A stretch of DNA of 64,000 bases from Bacteroidota bacterium (lineage in GTDB: Bacteria > Bacteroidota > Bacteroidia > B-17B0 > Aurantibacillaceae). The DNA lies in contig JAAFIL010000013.1 in assembly GCA_013297775.1 (NCBI GenBank), forward strand, positions 1-64,000. The letters run 5' to 3'. The notes under the pieces are model-generated. The model was not told the origin of the DNA. It was given only the letters and a program-made list of their open reading frames with translations, and did not search any database. Positions 18,318 through 63,308 of this stretch are shown here, piece by piece; within the stretch, counting starts at the first letter, position 1; each line of letters starts with the position of its first letter. A program made the position numbers and the translations under genes.

Positions 18318-19556
18318 ATGGCATTACAAGTAAACGTTAATGATATTCTATCTCAACTGTACCATAACAGAAGTACAGTCGAATTTTTATTTGCTAACCG
18401 CGAAAACATAACGGTTAATGAACTCCTCGCTAAAGGCGATTTGTCGGATGAGCAATACCAGCGCATGAAGTCGTTAGACTTGGTGTATGAATATGAAAAC
18501 ATTGTGAGTTTAAACGATGCGGTGGTGGCCATGTTTGAAGACTTCATGGAGATTGGTGAAGTTACGCCTGGCGTTATTAACGATGCCATCAACGAATTAA
18601 AACGTAACATTCACTTTTATCAAGAAGTACACGAACACCGATTTTTACGCAGCATAAAAAAATACCTTAAAAAAATTAGTGTGGCTCTTACCCGCGAAAT
18701 TATTAAGCTGCAAAAAAATGTAGATGATACTTATAAAAACGAAGCCAATTACCGCATCAAATTACAAAAACTCGAAAACTACCGCGAAAAGCGCGATACC
18801 ATTATTGATTTCATTCATAAAACTGAAAAAACAATTGATGAAACGCGGCAATTGTTTACGTTCACTAACGATACCGAATTGTATGGTATTGTGAATGCAC
18901 TAAAATCTACCCTTATTGAAAACCTCGATTATTTAATTGAGATTCAAACCAACATTACCGACTACATCAATAAAATACAATTTCAATTGGATGTGTATGT
19001 GAAAGCCCAACGTTTAAAAGAAATTAAAGACCATGGCACTTTGCATTACCGTACTAATTTTACCGAAGTTTTAAAAACCATTAACACCTTGCGGTATAAT
19101 AACGTTAAAGGGCCACGTACTAAAATTTCAGTTGACTTTTTATTTACCGACGATGGGCATTTATTATGCAAACGCGTTGCCGAAAAATATAAATTAGCGC
19201 GTTTAATGATGCGTGGTGTGGCTGGTAAATTGCCCGGAAACTTTAAAGAGCAATTAATAGATCAACAAATAAAATTAGATACCGAAAAATTAGTAGAGCG
19301 ATTTTTAACTCAAACCAAACATAATTTATTTGAATACTTAATGGATTATAAATTTCCGAAAGCAGTAGGCAACGTAACGTTTGAAGACCGCCTTTCGTTA
19401 TTTGTAGAAATAGCCATGGAATATCAAAATGATTTAGAGTTTAAATACCGTTTAAACTATTACGATTATGAAGATAACCAACAACGTAAAAAACGTTTAG
19501 GCTACACCATTATTTTGCCGAATAAGCAAGAAAAGAAATCTAAAAAAGCAGCTTAA
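18318..19556 (+). CDS. MksF/JetA-like kleisin of an SMC complex
   Basis: A 412-residue protein that I assign mostly by context and architecture. Its N-terminal ~100 residues look like a winged-helix (L-S-Q-L-Y-H-N-R-S-T-V-E-F-L, then a D-E-Q-Y-Q-R-M recognition-like helix). A helical middle follows (residues 95-240, long amphipathic helices), then a basic C-terminal region. MukF and its relatives MksF and JetA have this winged-helix-helical-bundle-winged-helix order and bridge the ATPase heads. It is the first gene of a three-gene operon: 18 bp to the MksE-like gene and then 35 bp to the SMC-like ATPase. Confidence 0.7.
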   Translation: MALQVNVNDILSQLYHNRSTVEFLFANRENITVNELLAKGDLSDEQYQRMKSLDLVYEYENIVSLNDAVVAMFEDFMEIGEVTPGVINDAINELKRNIHFYQEVHEHRFLRSIKKYLKKISVALTREIIKLQKNVDDTYKNEANYRIKLQKLENYREKRDTIIDFIHKTEKTIDETRQLFTFTNDTELYGIVNALKSTLIENLDYLIEIQTNITDYINKIQFQLDVYVKAQRLKEIKDHGTLHYRTNFTEVLKTINTLRYNNVKGPRTKISVDFLFTDDGHLLCKRVAEKYKLARLMMRGVAGKLPGNFKEQLIDQQIKLDTEKLVERFLTQTKHNLFEYLMDYKFPKAVGNVTFEDRLSLFVEIAMEYQNDLEFKYRLNYYDYEDNQQRKKRLGYTIILPNKQEKKSKKAA

Positions 19557-19574
19557 CCTTAAATAAAAGAACCG

Positions 19575-20183
19575 ATGACAGCAGAAGATTTTGCACTACC
19601 CCGTCAAACCCACGACATATTTGCCATTATGGCGCGTGGGCATTTCATTAGCAGCAATGGCACTAAAGATAACATGAGCCGTTTATACGACATCATTAAT
19701 CAAGAAGAAAATTTTCCACGTTTGCAAGCCTACTTTAATGTTATTAAATACAATATTGAACGCGGCAATAATTACTTTTATTTTTCGCGCATTAACGAAG
19801 GCAATAGTTTGATTGAAAAAAAACTAGAAACTTTTGAAAGGTATATTGATGTTATTGATTTGTTTGCTAGCATGGATAATAAAATTACCATTGGCTCGCG
19901 TTTCCGGCCAGCCGAAATTGCCGAAGAGTGCAACGCCAATGTGCGCCTTAAACAAAAGCTACAAAAAATTCCAATGTACCGCTCCGAAACCATGCTCAAC
20001 AAGGTGCGCGATATATGCGACCTCATGGCACGCGACAGTTATTTAGAACTCGAAGATGAAAATACCGAAAGTTATAAAGTTTTAGACTCGTATAATTACT
20101 TAATGGATGTGATTAACGCCATCAGTATTTATGAAGAGAGCACAGGTACCGATTCTAACAGCAGTGGAATCATTTACAATTAA
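19575..20183 (+). CDS. MksE/JetB-like accessory (KITE) subunit
   Basis: A 202-residue soluble protein with the size and order expected for MksE. Its first ~90 residues contain I-F-A-I-M-A-R-G-H-F-I-S-S and L-Q-A-Y-F-N-V-I-K-Y-N-I, ending in Y-F-Y-F-S-R, which fits a winged-helix of the KITE family; a second helical module follows, with an acidic tail (E-D-E-N-T-E). In MukBEF and Wadjet such proteins dimerise and bind the kleisin. The assignment rests on the MksF-like gene 18 bp upstream and the SMC-like ATPase 35 bp downstream. Confidence 0.7.
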   Translation: MTAEDFALPRQTHDIFAIMARGHFISSNGTKDNMSRLYDIINQEENFPRLQAYFNVIKYNIERGNNYFYFSRINEGNSLIEKKLETFERYIDVIDLFASMDNKITIGSRFRPAEIAEECNANVRLKQKLQKIPMYRSETMLNKVRDICDLMARDSYLELEDENTESYKVLDSYNYLMDVINAISIYEESTGTDSNSSGIIYN

Positions 20184-20218
20184 TGAATAGAACTATTTAA
20201 GCAGAAAGATAAACGCCA

Positions 20219-23200
20219 ATGAATACCGAAAACGTAAGAATTTTAAATCGCATTGTAGAAATAAATATTTCTAATGTAAAATATGCCGACATTGAACTTT
20301 GCGGCAACACCTGTTTTGTGGGTACTAATAATTTTGGAAAAACTTCGCTGCAACGGGCCATTTTGTTTTTTTACAGTGCCAATAGCCGTGGTTTAGGGAT
20401 AGCCCAATCGCAAAAAAGTTTTGAAGAACATTATTTCAGATACGAAAACTCTTACCTCGTTTATGAAATTGCTACCGAAGAAAAAAACTTTTTTGTAATG
20501 GTGTATCGCCACAACAAACTCGTGTTCCGCTTTGTTGATGCGCCTTACGATGCTGATTTCTTTTTTAATGCTAACGACGAGGCCATGAAAATTAAAGAAA
20601 TTATTTCGGGACTCGAAAAACGTGGCATTTACATCTCGAACCAAATTGATACATTTGAACGCTACCGTAATATTATTTTTGGAACTGAAACCGATAAACA
20701 ATTAGCCAAGTTCCATTTATTAAAAGGTAACGAAAAATACCAAAACATCCCAAAATCAATCACCAATGTATTTTTAAGTTCTAAAAATAGTATTGACTCG
20801 CGCTTTATTAAAGATTTTATTGCCAACTCGTTAACCACCGAAAACTCTAGCATACGCTTAGAGCAAGTAGAACGCCAGTTGCGCCAGTTTAATGAAAAAT
20901 ATACCGACATTGAAACGTTTATTAAAAAGGAAACGCAACAGCTTATTGAACTCATTGATAAAAAGTACGATCAAGTGCATTTATTAAAAGGTTCGCAAAT
21001 GGAACTGGCCGATAAATTAGGCAGCAGCCTACGCTTTGCCGAATCGCAAAATGAAGCCATACGCGAAGCCTCTAAAAAGAAAGAAGAAGAACTAGAAATT
21101 TTAACCGAAGACCACGAAAAGCTAATCAGCGAAATAGATAACAAACAAGGCAACGTGCGCGAAGAAATTGGTTACTACGATAAATCTATTCGCGATGCCA
21201 ATAAACGTTTGCGCGACTATAAAGATAAAAACATAGAAGAAGCCGTAGAAAAAAATGCCGAGCGCGAAAAGTTACAAGTTGAGCAAAACATTGCACGCCG
21301 CGAATACGAAAGTTTAACAAGCAATGTAGCCAGTATCGAATTAAAATATGCCTCGTTGTTAGAGCAATTGCGAAATGATAAAATGGCTTACATTAACACC
21401 ATTAATGCCAAAACCAGCGAAATATTTAATCATTACAACGAATTGCAATTATTACAAAAAAATGAATTTAATAAACGCGAGTCGGAATTAAAAACTAAAC
21501 GTGAAGAAGCCTTTAGCGAAGTAAATGCCGAAGTAACCGCCAAACAAATTGAATTTAATGAATTAAAAAGCGATGAAAAAGTAATTCGTAATACCCGTTT
21601 TTACGAAGCCGAAATTAAAAATATTGAAACTGAATTGGCCGAGTTACGCGCCATCTCGTATAAAAATAAAAGTGAACGTGCCATTAAACAAAACATGGTT
21701 CAAACCTTACAACGCGAATGGGAAGCCATAGAAGCTAAGTTGAAAACCTCACTCAGCAACGAAGTAAACCGCACCAATGGCGAAATCATTAAAATTAAAA
21801 ACGAAATTAAAGACATCGAATCGAAGCTAAACGTGCAACACGATGCGTTTTATGGTTTCTTAGAAAAAAATGTAAAAGATTGGCACCACACCATTGGCAA
21901 AGTGGTAAACGAAAAATTATTGTTCCGAACAGATATTAACCCCGAACTAAAAGAAGAAACCCTTAAAACCCTTTATGGCGTTAGCTTAAACTTAGAAAGT
22001 GTTGATGTCGTTTCTAAATCTATTGAAGAATATCAATTTGAAAAAAACGAACGCCTTGCTTTAATAAGAGATTTAGAAGAAGCTTTAAATGCGTTTCAAA
22101 CGAGTAATAACGAAGAAAAAATGTTGGCCGCTGATAAATATGGTAAACAATTGGGCGAGTTTAAAGAAGATGTGAAAGTGTTAAGCTACTCGTTAGATTT
22201 AGCGGATAAACGTGAGAAAAAATTAATGATTGAACTCGAAGACTGGCAAATGAAAGCAGGTGGCGAGGTAGAGCAATCGTTAAGCGGCAATCGTCAACGT
22301 TTAAATATTGTAGAAGAAGAGTTAACCTTATTAAATAAACGTAAAAATAATTTAGTAGATGATTTTAATCGCCAGCTCGACCAATTAAAAGTGTATAGTG
22401 AAGAGCGTTTACAAGATTTAAAATCGCGTCAAGAAACTGAAATTAGCGAATTGGAAGTCGAGAAAAAAAATCAGGTTAAAGAATTTGAGTCGAAAGAAGA
22501 AGAAATTAGTAAAGAAAAAGAAACTAATTTTAAATCGAAAGGAGTTGATAGTAAACAATTAAAACAAGTTGAAATGCGCTTAAAAGAAGTGCAAGAAGCC
22601 TTGAAAGAAATTGACCAATATGCCCAGTTAGTAAGCGATTACTTAAAAGACAAACGCGATATTTTTGACAAACTCCCCGACTTCATTCAGAAAAAAGAAG
22701 AGTACGTTAAATCGAATAACGAATTAACTGCACAAGCCGAAGAAACCACTCGTAAGTTTAATTTAAAACGGATGGAATTGAATAAACAAAAACGAGCGTT
22801 TGATGAAGAGTTAATTGAGTTTAACAACGGCGTTAATTTTTACAGCAATAACTTCCGCGAAACGCCAGTGTATGCTAAGTACTCCGAAATTATTGAACGT
22901 GCCGAAGCTAAACGAACCAATTACAACATCATGGATTTGTGTACGCAATTATTAAAAAACGATTCGCATTTTAATGAAGAGTATGGTGCGTTTCAACGTT
23001 ATGTAAACGACTTTTCGGGCCGTTTCCGTTTAGATAACCATTTTAATTTTATTATACGAAACGATGCTACACAAGCCGAATACGAACGATTTGCGCAAAA
23101 CCTACGATCGTTTATTAATGAAAATAAAATCGAATTGTCTATTGCCGAAACGGCTACTCAAATTGGTTTAGTAACCGATAGTATTGCCACTAAGGTAAAA

Positions 23201-23908
23201 GAACTTAGCGGACAAAAAGATAAAATTCAACACATCATTACCTTAATTGCCGAAGATTTTAAGAAAGCTGAATTTGAAGAAAGTAAACTCATCGAATTTA
23301 TTAAAATTAAAATTGAAGAATCGGATAATAAAGTTTATAAACTCTTAAAACGTATTGAAGAGTTTCGCGAAGAACATGGTTTAATTTATAACGAAGGTTT
23401 ATTTAACACCGACTTTGCAACAGGTACTAAACGCGAAATTAGTGGGCGTGCCGTTAAATTACTCGAACAATTGCGCAGTGCGATTAAGGAACAAGAACAA
23501 GAAGAAATTCGTTTACAAGATTTATTTGAATTAAAATTCAATATTAAAGAAGGGATGAACGAAACAGGGTGGACACATAAAATTGATAGCATTGGTAGCA
23601 CAGGCACCGACATCTTGGTAAAAGCAATTATCTACATTACGTTGTTGCATGTGTTTATTAAAGAATCGAGCCACCGCAGTAGCAAAGACTTTAAAGTACA
23701 TTGTATCATTGATGAGGTGGGACAAATTTCGGCGCATTATTTACGCGAGTTATTAAAGTTTGCCAAAAACCGAAATATTATGATGATTAATGGTTTACCA
23801 AATAAGAGCGGATTAGAAAGCCATTACAAGTACACGTATCAATTCCGTAAAGAAGACAGCGGCAATGTGCGCATTTTCCCGAGTATTGTTACCGAGGTAG
23901 AAGCGTAA
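20219..23908 (+). CDS. mksB: MksB/JetC-like SMC ATPase
   Basis: A 1229-residue SMC-type ATPase of the MukB/MksB/JetC branch. The Walker A loop G-T-N-N-F-G-K-T-S is at residues 35-43. The ABC-type signature S-T-G-T-D-I-L-V-K-A begins near 1127. Walker B C-I-I-D-E-V-G has its Asp-Glu at 1165-1166. In between lies a very long, charged, heptad-rich coiled coil (about 220-900 and 970-1090) interrupted by a more globular region near 900-970. Such ATPases extrude DNA loops, working with a kleisin and a KITE protein, which are encoded just upstream. In Wadjet systems a fourth gene (JetD, toprim-type nuclease) follows and cuts plasmids; here a terminator and unrelated minus-strand genes follow instead. 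This fits a chromosome-organising MksBEF better than a complete defence system. Confidence 0.85.
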   Translation: MNTENVRILNRIVEINISNVKYADIELCGNTCFVGTNNFGKTSLQRAILFFYSANSRGLGIAQSQKSFEEHYFRYENSYLVYEIATEEKNFFVMVYRHNKLVFRFVDAPYDADFFFNANDEAMKIKEIISGLEKRGIYISNQIDTFERYRNIIFGTETDKQLAKFHLLKGNEKYQNIPKSITNVFLSSKNSIDSRFIKDFIANSLTTENSSIRLEQVERQLRQFNEKYTDIETFIKKETQQLIELIDKKYDQVHLLKGSQMELADKLGSSLRFAESQNEAIREASKKKEEELEILTEDHEKLISEIDNKQGNVREEIGYYDKSIRDANKRLRDYKDKNIEEAVEKNAEREKLQVEQNIARREYESLTSNVASIELKYASLLEQLRNDKMAYINTINAKTSEIFNHYNELQLLQKNEFNKRESELKTKREEAFSEVNAEVTAKQIEFNELKSDEKVIRNTRFYEAEIKNIETELAELRAISYKNKSERAIKQNMVQTLQREWEAIEAKLKTSLSNEVNRTNGEIIKIKNEIKDIESKLNVQHDAFYGFLEKNVKDWHHTIGKVVNEKLLFRTDINPELKEETLKTLYGVSLNLESVDVVSKSIEEYQFEKNERLALIRDLEEALNAFQTSNNEEKMLAADKYGKQLGEFKEDVKVLSYSLDLADKREKKLMIELEDWQMKAGGEVEQSLSGNRQRLNIVEEELTLLNKRKNNLVDDFNRQLDQLKVYSEERLQDLKSRQETEISELEVEKKNQVKEFESKEEEISKEKETNFKSKGVDSKQLKQVEMRLKEVQEALKEIDQYAQLVSDYLKDKRDIFDKLPDFIQKKEEYVKSNNELTAQAEETTRKFNLKRMELNKQKRAFDEELIEFNNGVNFYSNNFRETPVYAKYSEIIERAEAKRTNYNIMDLCTQLLKNDSHFNEEYGAFQRYVNDFSGRFRLDNHFNFIIRNDATQAEYERFAQNLRSFINENKIELSIAETATQIGLVTDSIATKVKELSGQKDKIQHIITLIAEDFKKAEFEESKLIEFIKIKIEESDNKVYKLLKRIEEFREEHGLIYNEGLFNTDFATGTKREISGRAVKLLEQLRSAIKEQEQEEIRLQDLFELKFNIKEGMNETGWTHKIDSIGSTGTDILVKAIIYITLLHVFIKESSHRSSKDFKVHCIIDEVGQISAHYLRELLKFAKNRNIMMINGLPNKSGLESHYKYTYQFRKEDSGNVRIFPSIVTEVEA

Positions 23909-23932
23909 TACGGTCGTAGCTATAAAAAACTA

Positions 23933-23964
23933 AAAACGCACAAGAAATACCTTGTGCGTTTTTT
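23933..23964 (+). terminator. Terminator of the mksFEB operon
   Basis: AAAACGCACAAG (23933-23944) pairs perfectly with CTTGTGCGTTTT (23951-23962) around a 6-base loop and is followed by T. The A-run on the other side makes it bidirectional. The same stem occurs again at 25143-25175. Confidence 0.85.
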
Positions 23965-24057: not shown

Positions 24058-24345
24058 CTATGTTAGTTCCAGTCGCACTTTATATGAACTTGATCCAGTT
24101 TGGAGTATAGTAAATTGACCATGATCAATATATACTGATGTTACAAAAGGTGTTGCAACAATATTACCATTTGGTGTTTGAACTTCGGCAGATATTTCCT
24201 TGAAGTAAATTCCTGACTGCGGTAATGTAAAAATTTTATATGGTTCGACCGTATATGGAATAGGGATATTTTTCTCAACTTCATAAACGTATCCACTAAC
24301 AACGTATTTTGTACTATTGGCAATTTCAAGTTCTAGCAATGACAT
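24058..24345 (-). CDS. Small beta-rich protein, paralogue of 24526
   Basis: A 95-residue protein with no signal peptide or membrane segment; it is probably one compact beta-sandwich. I do not recognise the family. It is a clear paralogue of the protein at 24526-24816: both have a Leu/Ile-rich first strand with N-S/T-T-K-Y-x-V-S-G, then E-I-S-A-x-V-x-T-P-N-G-x-x-V-A-T-P and a hydrophobic last strand. It shares its upstream leader with that gene and with the LecB-type lectin gene, so the three are probably co-regulated. A carbohydrate- or surface-binding role is only inference from this company. Confidence 0.65.
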   Translation of the reverse strand: MSLLELEIANSTKYVVSGYVYEVEKNIPIPYTVEPYKIFTLPQSGIYFKEISAEVQTPNGNIVATPFVTSVYIDHGQFTILQTGSSSYKVRLELT

Positions 24346-24482
24346 AATATTTAATTGTTTTAAATTATTTCCTACTCGTATAGCTTTTTAGAGTACCTCC
24401 CGTTTTTTTAAGAGGGTCCTGCTCCACGCATGATAAAAAATTTATGAATCAAAATTATAGTACTCAAAAGATAATTTTAACT
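24346..24482 (-). promoter_or_regulatory. Shared structured leader, copy A
   Basis: This non-coding stretch upstream of the 95-residue gene matches the leaders at 24817 and 25581. Conserved blocks on the minus strand are a TTTTGAGTACTATAATTTT segment, a GGAGCAGGACCCTC hairpin-like element, TTAAAAAAACGGGA, and a TACTC (24391-24395) / GAGTA (24373-24377) stem-loop before the start codon. This copy is the shortest and its first hairpin is weak. Confidence 0.65.
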
Positions 24483-24525
24483 GTACAAAGAGTGTTTCGT
24501 TATAACCTCCCGACTCCAAATCGAG

Positions 24526-24816
24526 TTAGGTTTCTGATAAAGTTACTTCATATAAGTATCCTTCGATTTCGCATATAGCAAAATGAACTCTTGAACTTCC
24601 ATACGAACGGTAAGGTGTTGCAACTAAACCGCCATTTGGTGTTTTAACTATGGCAGATATTTCGGCTACTGGATTATTTTCTGGGGTTGTTGTTTGCCAC
24701 GTTTCATTCGGTGCGGCGGAATATACATCAGTGTGGTGAAGTGGACCTTCATAAAGAATAGTTCCAGAGACATCGTATTTTGTAGTATTGTTAATGGTAA
24801 TTACTAGATCATTCAT
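24526..24816 (-). CDS. Small beta-rich protein, paralogue of 24058
   Basis: A 96-residue protein without export signals. It aligns along most of its length with the 95-residue neighbour (N-T-T-K-Y-D-V-S-G and E-I-S-A-I-V-K-T-P-N-G-G-L-V-A-T-P), showing a local duplication followed by considerable protein divergence. A weak stem (24504-24532) overlaps its stop. The family is not known to me. Leader copy B lies directly upstream. Confidence 0.65.
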   Translation of the reverse strand: MNDLVITINNTTKYDVSGTILYEGPLHHTDVYSAAPNETWQTTTPENNPVAEISAIVKTPNGGLVATPYRSYGSSRVHFAICEIEGYLYEVTLSET

Positions 24817-25035
24817 AACATTTAATTGTTTTAAATTATTCCCTACTCGTATGGCTTTTCAGAGTACGTCCCGTTTTTTTAAGTGGATTCTACTCCACAC
24901 ACTATAAAAAATTTTACGAATTAAAATTATAACATTCAAAAGCTAATCTTAGCCATATAAATAATCGAATTGAAAACGAGTATTATTACTAGGTTATGAA
25001 TTCCTCTAGGTATAAATAAGGGGAGATAAATACGA
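24817..25035 (-). promoter_or_regulatory. Shared structured leader, copy B
   Basis: Strongly similar to copy A near the gene and to copy C over about 220 bp, including the distal segment around 24960-25035 (a TATAC-CTAGAG-AATTCATAACCT block). On the minus strand it contains TTTTGAATGTTATAATTTT, a clean GTGGA/TCCAC hairpin (24883-24898), TTAAAAAAACGGGA and a TACTC/GAGTA stem (24844-24866). No gene lies between 24817 and 25203; the 64-codon frame at 25045-25239 is not believed. Confidence 0.7.
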
Positions 25036-25142
25036 CCTGTTGTTTTAACAACTCCATTTATAATCAAATCCAGTCAATGGAAAATTAGCAGCCACTTCAT
25101 TTTTAAAAGATATGGATACAAGACAACTGTAGATATAAAAGT

Positions 25143-25177
25143 AAAAACGCACAAGAAAATACCTTGTGCGTTTTTTA
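25143..25177 (-). terminator. Terminator of the lectin gene
   Basis: The stem AAAAACGCACAAG (25143-25155) with CTTGTGCGTTTTT (25163-25175) is the same as that behind mksB apart from one extra loop base. Read on the minus strand it follows the lectin stop codon at 25203 by about 25 bp. Confidence 0.8.
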
Positions 25178-25202
25178 ATTGGGATTAACTCTACTTTACT
25201 TC

Positions 25203-25580
25203 TTATCCCTGCGTATTCCAAGCTACGAGCGATACCCATACATCGTTAAAGTCTTCATCAGAGCCATCTTCGATAGCCACGTTAAAATACTCGCCGATTA
25301 CATTCCCAGAAGGATCATTAATATTCCCTGAGGCAATTGACGAAATAAGTGTAGTAGCATTTAGTACATTTATCGTTAAGTTCAGACTAGTCCCATTTAC
25401 TAAACTCGCACCAGGCGTTGGCGCAGGTAAAGGATTTGTACTTTGACGACACATATTATTAATATACGTCGTGCTTGAATCCTTCAAAGTGATGCACACA
25501 TTATTTGCAGCTTGTGTAGTCCAAGACCAAAACATTAATTGATTTTGGTTGAACGGAACGGTGAATGTTTTACTTGCCAT
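25203..25580 (-). CDS. LecB/PA-IIL-type calcium-dependent lectin
   Basis: A 125-residue protein with no signal peptide. Its end carries the calcium-site pattern of Pseudomonas fucose/mannose lectin LecB: E-D-G-S-D-E-D-F-N-D at 104-113 followed by a C-terminal Gly at 125. The spacing of Glu104, Asp108, Asp110, Asn112 and Asp113 equals that of LecB Glu95, Asp99, Asp101, Asn103 and Asp104, and in LecB the C-terminal Gly of one monomer completes the site of its dimer partner. The N-terminal part has the expected beta-strand pattern. Such lectins bind two Ca2+ and a monosaccharide and reach the cell surface without a classical signal. Sugar preference cannot be read here. It shares leader and neighbourhood with the two ~95-residue proteins. 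Confidence 0.8.
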   Translation of the reverse strand: MASKTFTVPFNQNQLMFWSWTTQAANNVCITLKDSSTTYINNMCRQSTNPLPAPTPGASLVNGTSLNLTINVLNATTLISSIASGNINDPSGNVIGEYFNVAIEDGSDEDFNDVWVSLVAWNTQG

Positions 25581-25815
25581 GTTGGTTATTTTTTTGATTC
25601 CTACTCATTAGGTATTTCGGAAAAAGACCTCAACGTTTTAACTGCGTTGACCAGTTCGTTTTTTTAAGTGGGTTCTGCTCCACCGTTATAAAAGCTTTTA
25701 TGCTTACAAAATTATAGCATTCAAAAGCTAATTTTAACCGTAGAAATAATCGAATTAAAAAACAGGTACTATCTCCAGGTTATGAATTTCTCTAGGTATA
25801 AATAGGGGGGATGAA
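25581..25815 (-). promoter_or_regulatory. Shared structured leader, copy C
   Basis: Upstream of the lectin gene, this region repeats the blocks of copies A and B: a distal TATAC-CTAGAG-AATTCATAACCT block, TTTTGAATGCTATAATTTT, a GTGG/CCAC hairpin (25668-25683) and TTAAAAAAACG. The start-proximal TACTC/GAGTA stem of A and B is replaced by an unrelated CAACG/CGTTG stem-loop (25631-25649), so the position of a hairpin is kept while its sequence is not. Confidence 0.7.
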
Positions 25816-25970
25816 TATTATCTAAACATTGAGTATTTATGAGGATTATTGGTCTATTTAACAGGTATAATTGGTATTAGATTTCAGGAAATGTACAACA
25901 AATTGTATAGAACCATTCAATAGGATTTTAATTAATGTTTACTAAACCCTTTTCCTACTATTAGTATTAC

Positions 25971-34293: not shown

Positions 34294-34455
34294 TTACACT
34301 AAGTTAAACTATATTTATTAGTTTTCATATACCAATTACAAGGTATAATTCCCCGTTAATCATTTAGTTGATAATTCTGTTAATTTTTTATTTTCGATGA
34401 AGGTGCGGCGTTACCATTAAAAACCCGAACTTCAAAGGAAGTTTAATTGTGTAAT

Positions 34456-37161
34456 ATGTCGAAAATTAGAGTGGGTATTTTGTTTGGTGGCCCGAGTAAA
34501 GAACGTGAAATTTCGTTTGCTGGCGGACGCACTGTTTATGATAATTTGAATAAATCTATCTTTGAGCCCATCCCTTTGTTTATAGATTCGTTTGGGCATT
34601 TTATAGAGTTGGATTGGTCTTATATTTACAAAGGCACCATCCGCGATTTTTATCCTCCTGTTTCTTTTTTACCAAGTCAGTCAGCGTTTCAATTATACCT
34701 CGAAAACCTCGAAAATTTAAGCATCGAAACACACGAGGCCATGATGCAACACATTGGCAAACCCGTAAAAATAGAATCGTTAAAGCAAAAAATAGATTTT
34801 GCATTTCTGTGTTTGCACGGTTCTTATGGCGAGGATGGGCGTTTACAAGGCTTGTTAGAGTATTTAAAAATTCCATACAGTGGCTCGGGTATTTTAGCGA
34901 GTTCGATTGGGATGAACAAAGCCATTCAAAAAGAATTAATGATTAAATCGGGCTTTAATAGCCCACCGTATTTAGTAATTAACCGAAATGCTTGGATTAA
35001 CGGCGAGTACAAAGGGCTGTTTGCAAAAGTAAAATCAGAAATTCAATTACCTTGTGTGGTAAAGCCCGCCAATCAAGGCTCTAGCATTGGCGTAAGTATT
35101 TTAGCGCAAGATAATGAATTGGCGTTTATGAAAGCCGTTGAAAAAGCCTTGTTTACCCGTTGGCTAGATGCCAGCGAATGGCAAGGATTTAGCGATGAAG
35201 AGAAACACGTGTATATAAAAACGTTAACCGATATTCGCGAAGGTATTGGAATGCCCATCCACATTAGCCAAGGCGCACCCAACGCGCCTACCATTCACTC
35301 GCCCGATGCTTTGCTAAATTATTTGAACCTCCATTTAAAGACCGATGGTATGGTGTTAGAAAGTTTAGACGGCGAAAGTGAAGTACTTGTTGAAGGCTTC
35401 ATTAGTGGAAAAGAATTTTCGTGTATTGTGATGGAAGATGAAAAAGGAACAGCCATTGCCTTGCCACCCACCGAAATACGCAAAGGACACGAGTTGTTTG
35501 ATTACCGCAGTAAATATTTACCCGGCTTATCGCGTAAAATTACGCCCATTGCCATTGCTAACGAGCAAATTGAAGCCATTCGGGTAGCTTGCGAAAAATT
35601 ATTTTACGATTTAAAGTTCGATGTGTATGCGCGCATAGATGGGTTTATCACCGAAGCAGGAAAAATTTTTCTGAATGATCCGAATACAACAAGCGGCATG
35701 ATGCCCTCTTCATTCTTCTTTCATCAAGCCGCCGAAATTGGATTAAACCCTTCTCAATTTATTACTTATATCATTCACACTTCCTTAATAAAACGAATTA
35801 AGGATAGCAACAATGCACACACGTACAACGCTTTATTAACACAGCTTAATCAAGCCATTGCCAACGAACACGAGGGTACAAGCACCAAACAAAAGGTAGC
35901 CGTGGTGCTGGGTGGCTACTCATCCGAACGGCACATTTCGGTAGAGAGCGGACGTAATATTTTTGAGAAATTAGCGTCTTCCGAAAAATACGCGCCCATC
36001 CCTTTTTTTTTAACAGGCTCTAACGACCACCACGAATTATATATTATTCCCATCAACGTTTTACTAAAAGACAACGCCGATGATATAAAGGAAAAAGTAA
36101 ACCATTATGTGGTGCATCCTGTTATTGAAAGGATAAAAGAAAAATGTGCGGGCATCACGCATTTATTTACAGGTGGAAATGCCTTAACTAAGCCGCAACG
36201 TATTTCATATACAGACTTAGCTCAATTGGTAGGGCAAGTGTTTATTGCTTTGCATGGTCGCCCGGGCGAAGATGGTGCTATACAAGCCGAGTTAGATAAA
36301 TTGGGTTTACCTTACAACGGATCCGATAAACTAAGTTCAGCCATTACTATTGACAAGTATCGTACCAACGAAATTTTAAAACAGAATGGGTATTTAGTAG
36401 CCGAGCATATTTTAATTTCTACAAAAGAATGGGAAAATAAAGAACACGTAAAACACCAATTGCAAACCCAAATTGGTTATCCATTTATTGCGAAGCCAGT
36501 TGACGACGGGTGCAGTAGTGCGGTGAAAAAAATAAAAACATTTGAAGAGTTTGAAGCTTTTGCAACGCTAATGTTTAGAAACGATGTTGCGTTAGACCTT
36601 CGAGCAGCGACCACATTGCACATTAAAGATAAAGAAGAGTTTCCGCAAAAAACGGTGATACTCGTTGAAGAGTTAATTAGTAAAAAAGAAGCGCGCCATT
36701 TTTTAGAAGTAACTGGCGGCATGTTAACGCGCTACAACTCATCGGGCGAGGTGGAGTACGAAGTGTTTGAAGCCAGTGAGGCTCTGGCAGAGGGCGATAT
36801 ATTAAGTTTGGAGGAAAAATTTTTGGCAGGGCAAGGGCAAAATATTACACCAGCAAGGTATGCCCGCAACGCTAACGAACGGCAAATTATTAGCGAACAA
36901 GTTAAAACCGCATTAGGCGGTGCTGCCAAAGTGTTAGGCGTTATGGGCTATTGCCGCATAGACGCATTTGTGCGCGTATTCGATGATTTACGAACCGAAG
37001 TTATTTTTATAGAAGTGAACTCGTTGCCCGGCATGACCCCCGCCACTTGTATTTATCACCAAGCGGCCATAAACAATTATAAGCCCTATGAGTTTATAGA
37101 TCGTATTTTAGAGTTTGGACAAGCGCGTTTAAAACATCAAGCCGTCGTTAACCATTCTTAA
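34456..37161 (+). CDS. Double D-alanine-D-alanine ligase-like protein
   Basis: Two ATP-grasp ligase modules in one chain. I start at the ATG at 34456 (M-S-K-I-R-V-G-I-L-F-G-G-P-S), not the TTG three codons earlier, giving 901 residues. Module 1 (1-470) has L-H-G-S-Y-G-E-D-G, V-V-K-P-A-N-Q-G-S-S-I-G and A-R-I-D-G-F with a final metal motif L-N-D-P-N-T-T-S-G-M. Module 2 (about 477-901) restarts with V-A-V-V-L-G-G-Y-S-S-E-R, then L-H-G-R-P-G-E-D-G, A-K-P-V-D-D-G-C-S-S, and I-E-V-N-S-L-P-G-M-T. Normal Ddl is about 300-370 residues. Module 2 keeps the canonical E-x-N; module 1 has D-x-N and lacks the Pro-Gly. Whether it makes D-Ala-D-Ala or another dipeptide is unknown. polX follows 12 bp later. 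Confidence 0.88.
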   Translation: MSKIRVGILFGGPSKEREISFAGGRTVYDNLNKSIFEPIPLFIDSFGHFIELDWSYIYKGTIRDFYPPVSFLPSQSAFQLYLENLENLSIETHEAMMQHIGKPVKIESLKQKIDFAFLCLHGSYGEDGRLQGLLEYLKIPYSGSGILASSIGMNKAIQKELMIKSGFNSPPYLVINRNAWINGEYKGLFAKVKSEIQLPCVVKPANQGSSIGVSILAQDNELAFMKAVEKALFTRWLDASEWQGFSDEEKHVYIKTLTDIREGIGMPIHISQGAPNAPTIHSPDALLNYLNLHLKTDGMVLESLDGESEVLVEGFISGKEFSCIVMEDEKGTAIALPPTEIRKGHELFDYRSKYLPGLSRKITPIAIANEQIEAIRVACEKLFYDLKFDVYARIDGFITEAGKIFLNDPNTTSGMMPSSFFFHQAAEIGLNPSQFITYIIHTSLIKRIKDSNNAHTYNALLTQLNQAIANEHEGTSTKQKVAVVLGGYSSERHISVESGRNIFEKLASSEKYAPIPFFLTGSNDHHELYIIPINVLLKDNADDIKEKVNHYVVHPVIERIKEKCAGITHLFTGGNALTKPQRISYTDLAQLVGQVFIALHGRPGEDGAIQAELDKLGLPYNGSDKLSSAITIDKYRTNEILKQNGYLVAEHILISTKEWENKEHVKHQLQTQIGYPFIAKPVDDGCSSAVKKIKTFEEFEAFATLMFRNDVALDLRAATTLHIKDKEEFPQKTVILVEELISKKEARHFLEVTGGMLTRYNSSGEVEYEVFEASEALAEGDILSLEEKFLAGQGQNITPARYARNANERQIISEQVKTALGGAAKVLGVMGYCRIDAFVRVFDDLRTEVIFIEVNSLPGMTPATCIYHQAAINNYKPYEFIDRILEFGQARLKHQAVVNHS

Positions 37162-58754: not shown

Positions 58755-60854
58755 ATGAAAAAACATTTATTTTTAGGGAGTGCTTTACTAATCAGTATTA
58801 GTGCCTATCCTCAACAAGAGCGGAAGTTTAAAGCAACAGGATGCGTAAACACTGCTAACGAATTAAAAAAAAGGTTTGCGTTAGATGAAACGACTTTACC
58901 TCAACAAAAAATGACTCAAAATGTAAACACTACATTAGAAGAGCCTACAACTGCTACAAATGCAAAATCGAGTGCTGCTAGTGCTGCCATTACAGTGCTT
59001 CCTATCGGTGGCTCAATTAACGCGTTTGGGATGCTAGAGAGTGCTACCAAAAATTTACGGTGGAATAAAAATGTAGATGCTGTAACGTTTGTACACCGTA
59101 AAAGCCCAACGTATGTAGCTTCGCCCGGAAATAATTCAGGAGCTATTGTAACTTTACTTTCGGCTAACATGGGTGCCACTTGGGATAGTACTTGTATTTG
59201 GGCCGACGCAATTAATGCAGGTCGTTTTCCACAAGGCGGTTTATACAGTGCGCCAGGTAACACCAATTTACAAAACGCTTACATTGTAGGGATGGGTCCA
59301 ACTGTAGCTAGTAATGCTTTTACAGGAACTTGGTTAGCCAGTAAGCAGGTTAGTGTAACTCCTAAAAACACGCAGGGTACCGATGTGCAATTTTTTGGTA
59401 ACGCTGCACCAACAGGGCCTTTTGGCAAAGCCGATTATGTAAGAACTGGTTTCGATATCACTGACGATGGCGTAGTACACGGTATTGGTCCTGTATTTGT
59501 TGATATTAATAACACAACTACCGACGGTTTAAGTGGCGCAGAAATTATTAAAGGTGTATTTAGTGCGGGTGCTTTCGTATGGAGTTCAACAAACATTACC
59601 CCACCTGTTACTACTGATGTGAGCGGAGATAAAGTATTAACCAACACACCTAACATGGCTTGGAACGAAGCAGGCACAGTAGGTTATGCTATGTTTTTAG
59701 GTTCTCGTCAAGGAGCAACTGGTTCTAATGTAGGCTTACAACCACTTATTTACAAATCAACAAATAGTGGGGCTTCTTGGTCTTTATTGAATAATATAGA
59801 TTTCAACTTACCAGCCATGCAAACAGTTTTAGACCGTCTTGCGCCAGTAACTACCAATTCTAACTTGGTTGTACCTTACTTTAGCACTGGCGACGGGATT
59901 GATATAACAGTAGATGCTAACAATAATTTACACATTGGCTGTTTTATTCAATCAGCCAATAGCAATCACCCCGACTCTACTTTCTTTATAAGTACTTTTG
60001 GTGGACGACGTTTTATTTATACTGGTGGTGGTTTCCCTTATGTTTATGACTTTATGGGTGATGGCTCTGCTCCTTGGAAAGTTTTCACCATTGACTCAGC
60101 ACAAACCGAAGCACCAAGTGGTAACTCTGCCTCTTCAAGTTTCTCTGCCAATCCTATAACAGATGTTGATGCTAACGGTAACAAACAAGTTTCTAGTTCT
60201 CGTTTGCAACTTTCTCGAAGCATAGTGGGCGACCGCATTGCTTTCGTTTATGTAGAGGGTGATACGACTCAAACGACGAGTAAATTTTTACAATTTCCAA
60301 ACATAAAAGCACGTTTGGTGTGTACCGCTAACAATACAGTAACCATTGATCCCAATATCACAAATATGACCGCAAATTTACCTAGTGGTGCAATTAACAA
60401 CCGTGTTAAAGGGAAAGCGTATTTTCACCATGTATCTCCAAAGATGAAGGCAAGTTCAAATTCTTTATTTCAAATTCCAATTACAGTAACTAATAGTGCA
60501 CCATTGGTTTCACAAGGAGCCAATAGCCATTATTACATTTCTGGAGAAATTTCAAATTTTTCATGCACTGTAAATGTTGATGAAAATAAACCCAATGCTA
60601 AAGATTTAGCTTATGGTTTAATCCCTAATCCGGCAAAAGACAAAGTTAGTTTAAACGTAAAATTAAATACAGCTAATGCCATTGATGTATCGGTTTACAA
60701 CACGGTAGGTCAATTAGTAAAACAACTTAAAAACAATGGCGAAGTTGGAGAGAACAACATTTCATTGAGTTTAGAAAACTTAACATCAGGTATTTATATG
60801 GTAAAAGTTTCAGTAAATGGACTAACGACTACCAAAAAATTAATTGTTGAATAG
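58755..60854 (+). CDS. T9SS type A secreted protein, tandem paralogue 1
   Basis: A 699-residue secreted protein with signal peptide (M-K-K-H-L-F-L-G-S-A-L-L-I-S-I-S, ending A-Y-P-Q-Q). The large middle has BNR-like pieces such as K-S-T-N-S-G-A-S-W-S and S-A-N-M-G-A-T-W-D-S, so it is probably a beta-propeller. The T9SS type A sorting domain ends it: L-I-P-N-P-A-K-D-K-V, V-S-V-Y-N-T-V-G-Q-L-V and L-T-S-G-I-Y-M-V. It is a tandem duplicate of the gene at 61209 and is followed by its own terminator. Adhesin or hydrolase function is not apparent. Confidence 0.88.
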   Translation: MKKHLFLGSALLISISAYPQQERKFKATGCVNTANELKKRFALDETTLPQQKMTQNVNTTLEEPTTATNAKSSAASAAITVLPIGGSINAFGMLESATKNLRWNKNVDAVTFVHRKSPTYVASPGNNSGAIVTLLSANMGATWDSTCIWADAINAGRFPQGGLYSAPGNTNLQNAYIVGMGPTVASNAFTGTWLASKQVSVTPKNTQGTDVQFFGNAAPTGPFGKADYVRTGFDITDDGVVHGIGPVFVDINNTTTDGLSGAEIIKGVFSAGAFVWSSTNITPPVTTDVSGDKVLTNTPNMAWNEAGTVGYAMFLGSRQGATGSNVGLQPLIYKSTNSGASWSLLNNIDFNLPAMQTVLDRLAPVTTNSNLVVPYFSTGDGIDITVDANNNLHIGCFIQSANSNHPDSTFFISTFGGRRFIYTGGGFPYVYDFMGDGSAPWKVFTIDSAQTEAPSGNSASSSFSANPITDVDANGNKQVSSSRLQLSRSIVGDRIAFVYVEGDTTQTTSKFLQFPNIKARLVCTANNTVTIDPNITNMTANLPSGAINNRVKGKAYFHHVSPKMKASSNSLFQIPITVTNSAPLVSQGANSHYYISGEISNFSCTVNVDENKPNAKDLAYGLIPNPAKDKVSLNVKLNTANAIDVSVYNTVGQLVKQLKNNGEVGENNISLSLENLTSGIYMVKVSVNGLTTTKKLIVE

Positions 60855-61208: not shown

Positions 61209-63308
61209 ATGAAAAAACATTTATTTTTAGGAAGTGCCTTACTGATTAGTATTAGTGCCTATCCTCAACAACAACGGAAGTTTAAAGCAACAGGCTGCGT
61301 AAACACTGCTAACGAATTAAAAAAAAGGTTTGCGTTAGATGAAACGACTTTACCTCAGCAAAAAATGGCTTCAAATGTAAGTACCACAACAGAAGAGCCT
61401 ACAGTTACTTCAAATGCAAAGTCGAGTGCTGCAAGTGCTGCCATTACGGTGCTTCCTTTTGGCGGCTCAATGAATGCGTTTGGTATGTTAGAGAGTGCTA
61501 CCAAAAATATACGTTGGAATAAAAATGTAGATGCCGTAACATTTGTACACCGTAAAAGCCCAACGTATGTGGCTGCTCCAGGCAATAACTCGGGAGCTAT
61601 TGTAACTTTATTTTCAGCTAATATGGGTGCCACTTGGGATAGTACTTGTATTTGGGCTGACGTAACTAATGCAGGTCGTTTTCCACAAGGTGGTTTATAC
61701 AGTGCGCCAGGTAACACCAATTTACAAAACGCTTACATTGTAGGGATGGGTCCAACTGTAGCTGGTACCAATTTTTCAGGTAATTGGTTTGCTAGCAAGC
61801 AGGTTAGTCTAACTCCTAAAAACACGCAAGGTACCGATGTGCAATTTTTTGGTAACGTTGCACCAACAGGGCCTTTTGGCAAAGCCGATTATATAAGAAC
61901 TGGTTTTGACATCACCGATGACGGTGTAGTACATGGAATGGGTCCCGTATTTGTTGACTTTAATAATACAACTGCTAATGGTTTAAGTGGTGCAGAAATT
62001 GTTAAAGGCGTATTTAGTGCGGGTGCTTTCGTTTGGAGCTCAACAAATATTACCCCACCTGTTACTACTGAAAGTGGAGGCGACAAAGTACTAACCAACA
62101 CACCTTACATGGCTTGGAACGAAGCAGGTACAATAGGTTATGCTATGTTTTTAGGTGCTCGCCAAGGCGCAACTGGTTCTAATATTGGGATTCAACCACT
62201 CATTTACAAATCAACGAATAGTGGTGCTTCTTGGTCTTTATTGAGTAGTATAGATTTCAACTCACCAGCTATGCAAACAGTTTTGGATCGTATTGCGCCA
62301 GTAAATACCAATTCTAATCTAGCAGTACCATTCTTTAGTGCTAGCGACGGAATTGATTTAACAGTAGATGCTAGTAATAACCTACACATTGGCTGTTTTA
62401 TTCAATCTTCTTTTAGTAGTGACCCTGACTCGGCATTCTTTTTGAGTACTTTTGGTGGACGACGTTTTATTTATACTGGTGGTGGTTTCCCTTATGTTTA
62501 CGACTTTATGGGTGATGGCTCTGCTCCTTGGAAATTTTACACTATTGACTCGGCACAAACTGAAGCACCAAGTGGGAATCAAGCAGCTTCAAGTTTCTCT
62601 GCCAATCCTATAACGGATGTTGGTGCTACTGGTAATAAACAAGTTTCTAGTGCTCGTTTGCAACTTTCTCGAAGCATAGTAGGCGACCGCATTGCTTTCG
62701 TTTATGTGGAGGGCGATACGACTCAAACGACGAGTAAATTTTTACAATTTCCAAACATAAAAGCACGTTTGGTTTGTACTGCTAACAATACAATAACGAT
62801 TGATCCCAATATCACAAATATGACCGCAAATTTACAAAGTAATGCAACTAATAACCGTGTTAAAGGAAAAGCATATTTTCACCATGTATCTCCAAAAATG
62901 AAGGCAAGTTCAAATTCTTTGTTTCAAGTTCCAATTACAGTAACTAATAGTGCACCATTGGTTTCACAAGGAGCTAACACCAATTATTATATTTCTGGAG
63001 AAATTTCAAACTTTGTTTGTATTGTAAGTATTGATGAAAACAAACCTAATGCGAAAGATTTAGCTTATGGTTTAATCCCTAATCCGGCAAAAGACAAAGT
63101 TAGTTTAAGCGTAAAATTAAATACAGCTAACACCATTGATGTATCGGTTTACAACACAGTAGGTCAATTGGTGAAGCAACTTAAAAACAATGGCGAGGTT
63201 GGCGAAAACAACATTTCATTGAGCTTAGAAAACTTAACATCAGGTATTTATATGGTAAAAGTTTCAGTAAATGGATTAACTACTACCAAAAAATTAATTG
63301 TTGAATAA
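61209..63308 (+). CDS. T9SS type A secreted protein, tandem paralogue 2
   Basis: The same length (699 residues) and layout as its neighbour, starting from an identical signal peptide and ending with an almost identical sorting domain; the two proteins are roughly 90% alike. Differences cluster in the propeller region (for example A-G-T-N-F-S-G-N-W-F for A-S-N-A-F-T-G-T-W-L). The offset of 2454 bp is equal at both ends, so the upstream region was included in the duplication. Confidence 0.88.
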   Translation: MKKHLFLGSALLISISAYPQQQRKFKATGCVNTANELKKRFALDETTLPQQKMASNVSTTTEEPTVTSNAKSSAASAAITVLPFGGSMNAFGMLESATKNIRWNKNVDAVTFVHRKSPTYVAAPGNNSGAIVTLFSANMGATWDSTCIWADVTNAGRFPQGGLYSAPGNTNLQNAYIVGMGPTVAGTNFSGNWFASKQVSLTPKNTQGTDVQFFGNVAPTGPFGKADYIRTGFDITDDGVVHGMGPVFVDFNNTTANGLSGAEIVKGVFSAGAFVWSSTNITPPVTTESGGDKVLTNTPYMAWNEAGTIGYAMFLGARQGATGSNIGIQPLIYKSTNSGASWSLLSSIDFNSPAMQTVLDRIAPVNTNSNLAVPFFSASDGIDLTVDASNNLHIGCFIQSSFSSDPDSAFFLSTFGGRRFIYTGGGFPYVYDFMGDGSAPWKFYTIDSAQTEAPSGNQAASSFSANPITDVGATGNKQVSSARLQLSRSIVGDRIAFVYVEGDTTQTTSKFLQFPNIKARLVCTANNTITIDPNITNMTANLQSNATNNRVKGKAYFHHVSPKMKASSNSLFQVPITVTNSAPLVSQGANTNYYISGEISNFVCIVSIDENKPNAKDLAYGLIPNPAKDKVSLSVKLNTANTIDVSVYNTVGQLVKQLKNNGEVGENNISLSLENLTSGIYMVKVSVNGLTTTKKLIVE

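Follow-up and report, generated by a model that had tools for sequence, protein, structure and literature searches.

A predicted divergent LecB-type lectin gene and structured leader RNAs at a candidate Bacteroidota regulon

The stretch of DNA considered here (the window, 64,000 nucleotides) comprises positions 1 to 64,000 of contig JAAFIL010000013.1 (assembly GCA_013297775.1), from a member of the Aurantibacillaceae within the Bacteroidota. Three open reading frames (ORFs) in this window encode a protein of 125 amino acids (aa) with the predicted fold of the LecB-type (PA-IIL) lectins and two small paralogous proteins of 95 and 96 aa, and each is preceded by RNA of the DUF805 type. The same RNA precedes a scattered collection of other genes in this genome (G000) and in a relative that has an ortholog of the lectin (G032), and some of these genes lie beside a four-gene signaling module. 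It is fairly probable that the RNA-led genes form a kit under the control of leader RNA and a two-component system; that they and the module belong to a single regulon is considered at least an even prospect. In this explanation, each of the three transcription units of the window would be headed by a DUF805-type leader RNA, and the lectin, the small proteins, PixA/AidA, DUF1842, a 138-aa family and others would be members of one dispersed set in G000 and G032. The two-component system would set transcription and the leader RNA would gate translation, and a signal from the community or from stress would prompt the joint production of soluble proteins directed at glycans or membranes. The features of the locus are as follows.

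20219-23908, plus strand: flanking gene for a 1229-aa coiled-coil ATPase; the same neighbor borders the lectin array of G032 (synteny anchor)
23932-23963, minus strand: terminator-like hairpin 3' of the 95-aa gene, near-identical to that of the lectin gene (terminator and repeat comparison)
24058-24345, minus strand: gene for the 95-aa paralog of the 96-aa protein (ORF, BLASTP)
24365-24432, minus strand: DUF805-type leader RNA of the 95-aa gene (RF03081, 42.6 bits, E = 4.9e-6, below the gathering score), ending 19 nucleotides (nt) before the ATG
24433-24504, minus strand: shorter copy of the repeated upstream region, at the 95-aa gene (repeat comparison), with TAnnTTTG 25 nt before the RNA
24526-24816, minus strand: gene for the 96-aa protein, of no recognized family and predicted to be all-beta (ORF, AlphaFold)
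24836-24903, minus strand: DUF805 RNA ahead of the 96-aa gene, its RF03081 score of 60.4 bits exceeding the gathering score (51.1), ending 19 nt before the ATG
24904-25040, minus strand: copy of the repeated upstream region at the 96-aa gene (repeat comparison)
25143-25175, minus strand: hairpin resembling an intrinsic terminator, 3' of the lectin gene (terminator scan)
25203-25580, minus strand: gene for the predicted divergent PA-IIL/LecB-fold lectin, 125 aa (ORF, AlphaFold, Foldseek, VIA-align, G032 ortholog)
25594-25688, minus strand: DUF805-type leader RNA of the lectin gene, with an inserted hairpin (RF03081, 35.8 bits, E = 1.9e-4, below the gathering score), ending 13 nt before the ATG
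25689-25817, minus strand: repeated upstream region of the lectin gene (repeat families D2, D3 and D5)
about 25707-25714, minus strand: TAnnTTTG (-7-like), then ATAAAAGCTTTTAT, upstream of the lectin gene (from the motif position, with a putative start site)

A sequence-only reading of this DNA had placed three ORFs at 24058-25580, and all are present there on the minus strand. The terminators and repeated upstream regions suggest that they are three separate transcription units. That reading had also seen a leader common to the three genes, as is borne out by the alignments: the 224 bp that precede the 96-aa gene align with the corresponding stretches before the other two genes at 82-85% identity (E = 7e-37 in both cases) and contain a curated Rfam motif, the orphan DUF805 RNA. 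The RNAs of the window end 13-19 nt before the start codon. Among the 87 genomes sampled from the same family, matches to this RNA occur in 56 (41 above the cut-off), with ten in G000, and among the copies examined most end about 10-20 nt before a start codon.

In G000 and G032 the genes that follow the RNA are not homologous to one another, and most encode proteins without evident signal peptides (signal peptides were judged by eye throughout). They include two tandem PixA/AidA genes in G000 (PF12306, E = 1e-15 to 1e-17), the first with a clear leader and the second with a leader suggested only by a P1-like hairpin. The RNA also heads the gene for a 161-aa protein and genes of the 138-aa family, which is present in both species, and in G032 it heads a DUF1842 gene (PF08896, E = 5e-17) and, in the C69 cluster, genes for PixA-like and other proteins. 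The DUF1842 genes of two further genomes (G022 and G036) are RNA-led as well. PixA and the lectin are limited to the same two of the 87 genomes, G000 and G032, both of which also contain DUF1842. Since a structured RNA stands before non-homologous genes elsewhere in the genome, shared regulation is a better reading of the common leader than a complex between the lectin and its partners.

The candidate for transcriptional control is a module of four genes, encoding a protein with a PCPxxC motif, a membrane protein, a histidine kinase and a LuxR/NarL-type response regulator. The gene order in G032 is ATPase, lectin, 219-aa protein, DUF1842, 138-aa protein and DUF1842, then the divergent module, whose kinase is of the HisKA_3 type, followed by genes for a 653-aa protein and, by eye, a MutS2-like protein. 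This array is split in G000: the window carries the ATPase, 95-aa, 96-aa and lectin genes, and contig C85 carries the 138-aa gene, DUF1842, the module and the MutS2-like gene. A second G000 module adjoins the PixA pair on contig C96. A profile of the PCPxxC protein identified 15 loci spread over 11 of the family's genomes, at all of which the other three genes lie alongside; at one of these (G050 C127) the contig ends inside the kinase, leaving the regulator out of view. The Pfam domains of the kinase and regulator were confirmed at six module loci, and the first two module proteins belong to no Pfam family. Example loci are L016:11738-14498, L015:4733-7361, L170:3305-6026, L171:5453-8238 and L169:513-3212. 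DUF805 RNA or the related DUF805b RNA is found near 8 of the 15 modules, five of which had seeded the profile because they lie beside RNA-led genes. Among the ten non-seed modules, three (in G047, G023 and G011) have such an RNA within about 6 kb, compared with about 0.1 by chance, as we estimate from the size of the genomes and the number of RNA copies in them. Some modules have neighbors of other kinds. At L165:4515-5642 (G047 C5), a gene beside a module and an RNA leader encodes 375 aa that include an HBL-type domain (PF05791, E = 3.7e-8), and at L163:1776-4115 (G067 C11), where no DUF805 RNA is present, a module is adjoined by an array of small signal-less paralogs, two of which are Nakanori-like below threshold.

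Several observations speak against joining these genes and the module in one regulon. With only two genomes containing the lectin, the co-occurrence may mirror one ancestral gain. Seven of the 15 modules (six loci and that of G016) have no such RNA nearby, the window locus has no module beside it, and in most relatives the DUF805 RNA heads unrelated lipoprotein and membrane-protein genes. Because most copies in the other relatives precede genes of these two kinds, the RNA is probably a wider control element, and an initial idea that tied it to this kit alone was abandoned. The broadest form of the proposal is somewhat less likely than not: an undescribed Bacteroidota system in which the module, present at several loci with the tandem-pseudoknot RNA, would govern interchangeable sets of proteins that lack signal peptides and are lectin-like, AidA/PixA-like, pore-like or lipid-binding-like or belong to DUF1842. 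If true, the system would be a functional counterpart of the quorum-sensing kits of proteobacteria, would provide a biological context for an orphan RNA and would link a new four-gene signaling module to secreted-type proteins. Moreover, proteobacterial relatives of the RNA-led genes for the lectin, AidA and DUF1842 are targets of quorum sensing or are induced in stationary phase, which offers a concrete hypothesis for when the DUF805 RNA may act.

The kit might instead serve as an anti-predator or antagonistic arsenal, freed by lysis or non-classical release and aimed at the glycans or lipids of protists, nematodes or other eukaryotes. The HBL-type, pore-forming-like protein encoded beside a module, whose match is above the cut-off, fits such a role, as would the Nakanori-like, lipid-binding-like proteins. 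However, the Nakanori matches are sub-threshold, and AidA of R. solanacearum is dispensable for nematode killing (PMC4596706). An arsenal is thus regarded as rather unlikely.

The two small proteins bear on another view of the locus. As the sequence-only reading had described them, they are paralogs (BLASTP E = 3e-10; 39% identity) without a recognized family: sequence searches of Pfam, NCBIfam and the PDB returned no family and only chance-level names. Neither is found in any other of the 87 genomes, G032 included. For the 96-aa protein, AlphaFold predicts an all-beta structure with low confidence (mean predicted local distance difference test score, pLDDT, 65.6), and this low-confidence model has no Foldseek match at E <= 0.001 and reaches a VIA-align Z of at most 7.8. 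LecB-like, Nakanori-like and C2-like identities for the small proteins each received an hhalign probability of less than 1%. The earlier reading had suggested a role in adhesion, at the cell surface or in a community; on this view, the lectin and these proteins would form a secreted adhesion complex on the cell surface or in the matrix. Such a complex would suit the finding that LecB binds the matrix polysaccharide Psl and stabilizes the biofilm (PMC6522473), as well as the biofilm defect of a Ralstonia lecM mutant (PMC4596706), and the common leader implies that the lectin and the small proteins are co-produced. Nevertheless, all three proteins lack evident signal peptides, and G032 has the lectin ortholog with other neighbors and without the small proteins, indicating that these are not obligate partners. 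A secreted complex of this kind is therefore improbable, and co-regulation of separate proteins by the RNA and the module remains the preferred explanation.

There is high confidence that the leader is a functional structured RNA. Covariation in an alignment of 56 DUF805 RNA copies of at least 53 bits defines two hairpins, P1 (GUGG/CCAC) and P2 (GGC/GCC), and two pseudoknots: PK1, in which CC of the P1 loop pairs with the GG that follows, and PK2, in which CC of the P2 loop pairs with GG of GAGUAGG. For this double pseudoknot, 96.6% of the cells are paired and both-side changes occur at 9 of 11 pairs, counts that kinship inflates, the structure itself having come from the same kind of alignment. 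The covariation score is 0.373 versus 0.166 in shuffles, none of 500 shuffles being as high on any of five measures, and slid controls, which keep the kinship, give scores of 0.015-0.127 with 15-54% of cells paired. The lectin leaders of G000 and G032 differ in P2 (AGGU/ACCU versus GAGGC/GCCUU) and in PK2 (CC/GG versus CU/AG) in a manner that is compensatory by inspection. The second pseudoknot alone would be what the short, 35-nt DUF805b model represents. The minimum folding energy of the leaders is ordinary (z = 0.17), pseudoknots being outside that model. Upstream of the RNA, a TAnnTTTG motif is found at 25-60 nt in only 6 of 83 copies versus 1.7 expected, so there is no common promoter architecture at a fixed distance across the family, and a scan for σ70-type promoters was below chance.

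The leader could alternatively be a recombination substrate alone, that is, the head of a DNA cassette that captures and shuffles ORFs and whose RNA fold has no regulatory part. Some features fit such a role. The leaders are about 82-85% identical before non-homologous ORFs, the G032 lectin has other cargo beside it, and the two genome-specific small genes are bracketed by duplicated leaders and the near-identical terminator-like hairpins at 23932-23963 and 25143-25175, suggesting an insertion or duplication of the 95/96-aa pair in the space that separates the flanking ATPase gene from the lectin. However, the compensatory changes seen among the 56 copies, which come from many genomes, and a conserved distance to the start codon point to selection on the RNA structure, and P2 and PK2 are kept between the orthologous lectin leaders despite the change in sequence. 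Furthermore, the two functions may coexist, since homologous leaders can also recombine. A role in recombination alone is thus considered a poor prospect.

The fold of the 125-aa protein is very likely that of PA-IIL/LecB. Its AlphaFold model, made from an alignment of two sequences, has a mean pLDDT of 88.1, and Foldseek returned 25 PDB matches at E <= 0.001, every one of them a lectin of the PA-IIL type (BclA/BC2L, LecB, RS-IIL, CV-IIL and thrombocorticin; E <= 4.3e-4). With VIA-align, the model gives a Z of 13.9-14.3 to thrombocorticin and about 12 (down to 11.8) to the bacterial lectins; the next unrelated structure has 7.2. Thus, the assignment to this fold made in the sequence-only reading now has a predicted structure that matches it. 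The calcium ligands of LecB are E95, D99, D101, N103 and D104 (PMC8752737). The corresponding motif here is E104-D105-G-S-D108-E-D110-F-N112-D113, with Gly125 as the last residue, and D105 is the counterpart of D96, which contacts fucose in LecB. The claim that the LecB spacing is exact holds for the acidic ligands, which have the identical pattern E-x3-D-x-D-x-N-D and keep the motif in the G032 ortholog (72-73% identical); it fails for the tail, where the C-terminal Gly is 2 residues further out than in LecB. In an ungapped alignment, the sugar-specificity loop presumably also differs from that of the LecB family.

The tail is one of several points that tell against a protein of this type. 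In this lectin family, the carboxylate of the C-terminal Gly reaches the calcium site of the partner subunit. Gly is the final residue in both orthologs, but it lies 12 residues past the last Asp, whereas this distance is 10 residues for LecB and 11 for thrombocorticin, from D120 to G131 (PMC9700728), and the addition of one Gly to thrombocorticin weakens sugar binding (PMC9700728). PF07472 misses the lectin, with no match at E <= 0.001 in its own genome and none at E <= 10, and hhalign against two true Bacteroidota PA-IIL proteins gives a 7% probability, aligning the calcium loop alone. Because PF07472 and hhalign fail to detect it, the 125-aa protein is described as a divergent PA-IIL relative and not as a Pfam member. 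It would very probably be a calcium-dependent, dimeric sugar-binding lectin, and most likely it would work like LecB. It is very improbable that it is instead a DUF4114-type beta-sandwich calcium-binding protein and no lectin: DUF4114 is its sole sub-threshold Pfam match (E = 0.025), but the score is 15.9 bits versus a cut-off of 27, a genuine PA-IIL protein (L112) also matches DUF4114 weakly, an echo of a common calcium loop, and the structure search yields PA-IIL lectins alone at E <= 0.001.

LecB-type lectins had been thought uncommon in Bacteroidota, and so they are: PA-IIL proteins above the Pfam cut-off occur in 2 of 395 sampled Bacteroidota genomes. The sole such proteins (L112:1477-1872 and L113:1396-1890) do not end in Gly; without it, their calcium site must be completed otherwise or be incomplete. 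Searches for relatives of the lectin among genome contigs (genome_contigs) found none with the single sequence and only the G032 lectin with the pair alignment, and none was found among viral contigs and plasmids. The lectin would add a branch that sequence profiles miss.

Elsewhere in the window, genes for 412-aa and 202-aa proteins and the 1229-aa coiled-coil ATPase lie in a row (18318-23908) and by eye resemble an MksFEB-type SMC complex. Tandem, near-identical 699-aa proteins (58755-60854 and 61209-63308) have starts like signal peptides and a C-terminus like a type IX sorting signal, and a 904-aa protein (34447-37161) resembles a tandem fusion of two D-alanine-D-alanine ligase units; both assignments were likewise made by eye.

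Compared with known systems, the lectin shares with PA-IIL/LecB and thrombocorticin a fold predicted over residues 2-124, the calcium motif, the fucose-contacting Asp, the terminal Gly, a small size and the lack of an evident signal peptide. Unlike the solved PA-IIL chains, with which it is 9-18% identical in the structural alignment, it escapes PF07472 and has its Gly at +12. The leaders resemble the DUF805 and DUF805b RNAs (RF03081 and RF02914; clan CL00115) in sequence, structure and location directly upstream of coding regions. However, they often score below the gathering threshold and have an extra hairpin, and the genes downstream encode the lectin, PixA/AidA, DUF1842 and others.

The nearest parallels to the kit are found in proteobacteria. 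In Ralstonia, lecM, aidA and aidC are adjacent and are controlled by SolI/R quorum sensing, and B. cenocepacia and P. entomophila share the lecM-aidA-aidC order (PMC4596706). CsuI/R quorum sensing in Chromobacterium subtsugae raises the expression of DUF1842 genes and of fucose-binding lectin II (PMC12114271), and stationary phase raises that of DUF1842 genes in Burkholderia thailandensis by about 7-8 log2 units (PMC12322963). Like the SolI/R and CsuI/R sets, the kit described here combines a LecB-type lectin, PixA/AidA and DUF1842 in one candidate regulon. Unlike them, it belongs to Bacteroidota, has its genes spread over several loci, and has RNA leaders and a two-component module where the proteobacterial sets have a demonstrated acyl-homoserine lactone system. 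Thus, the same protein families apparently recur in one type of regulon, which here may be under different control.
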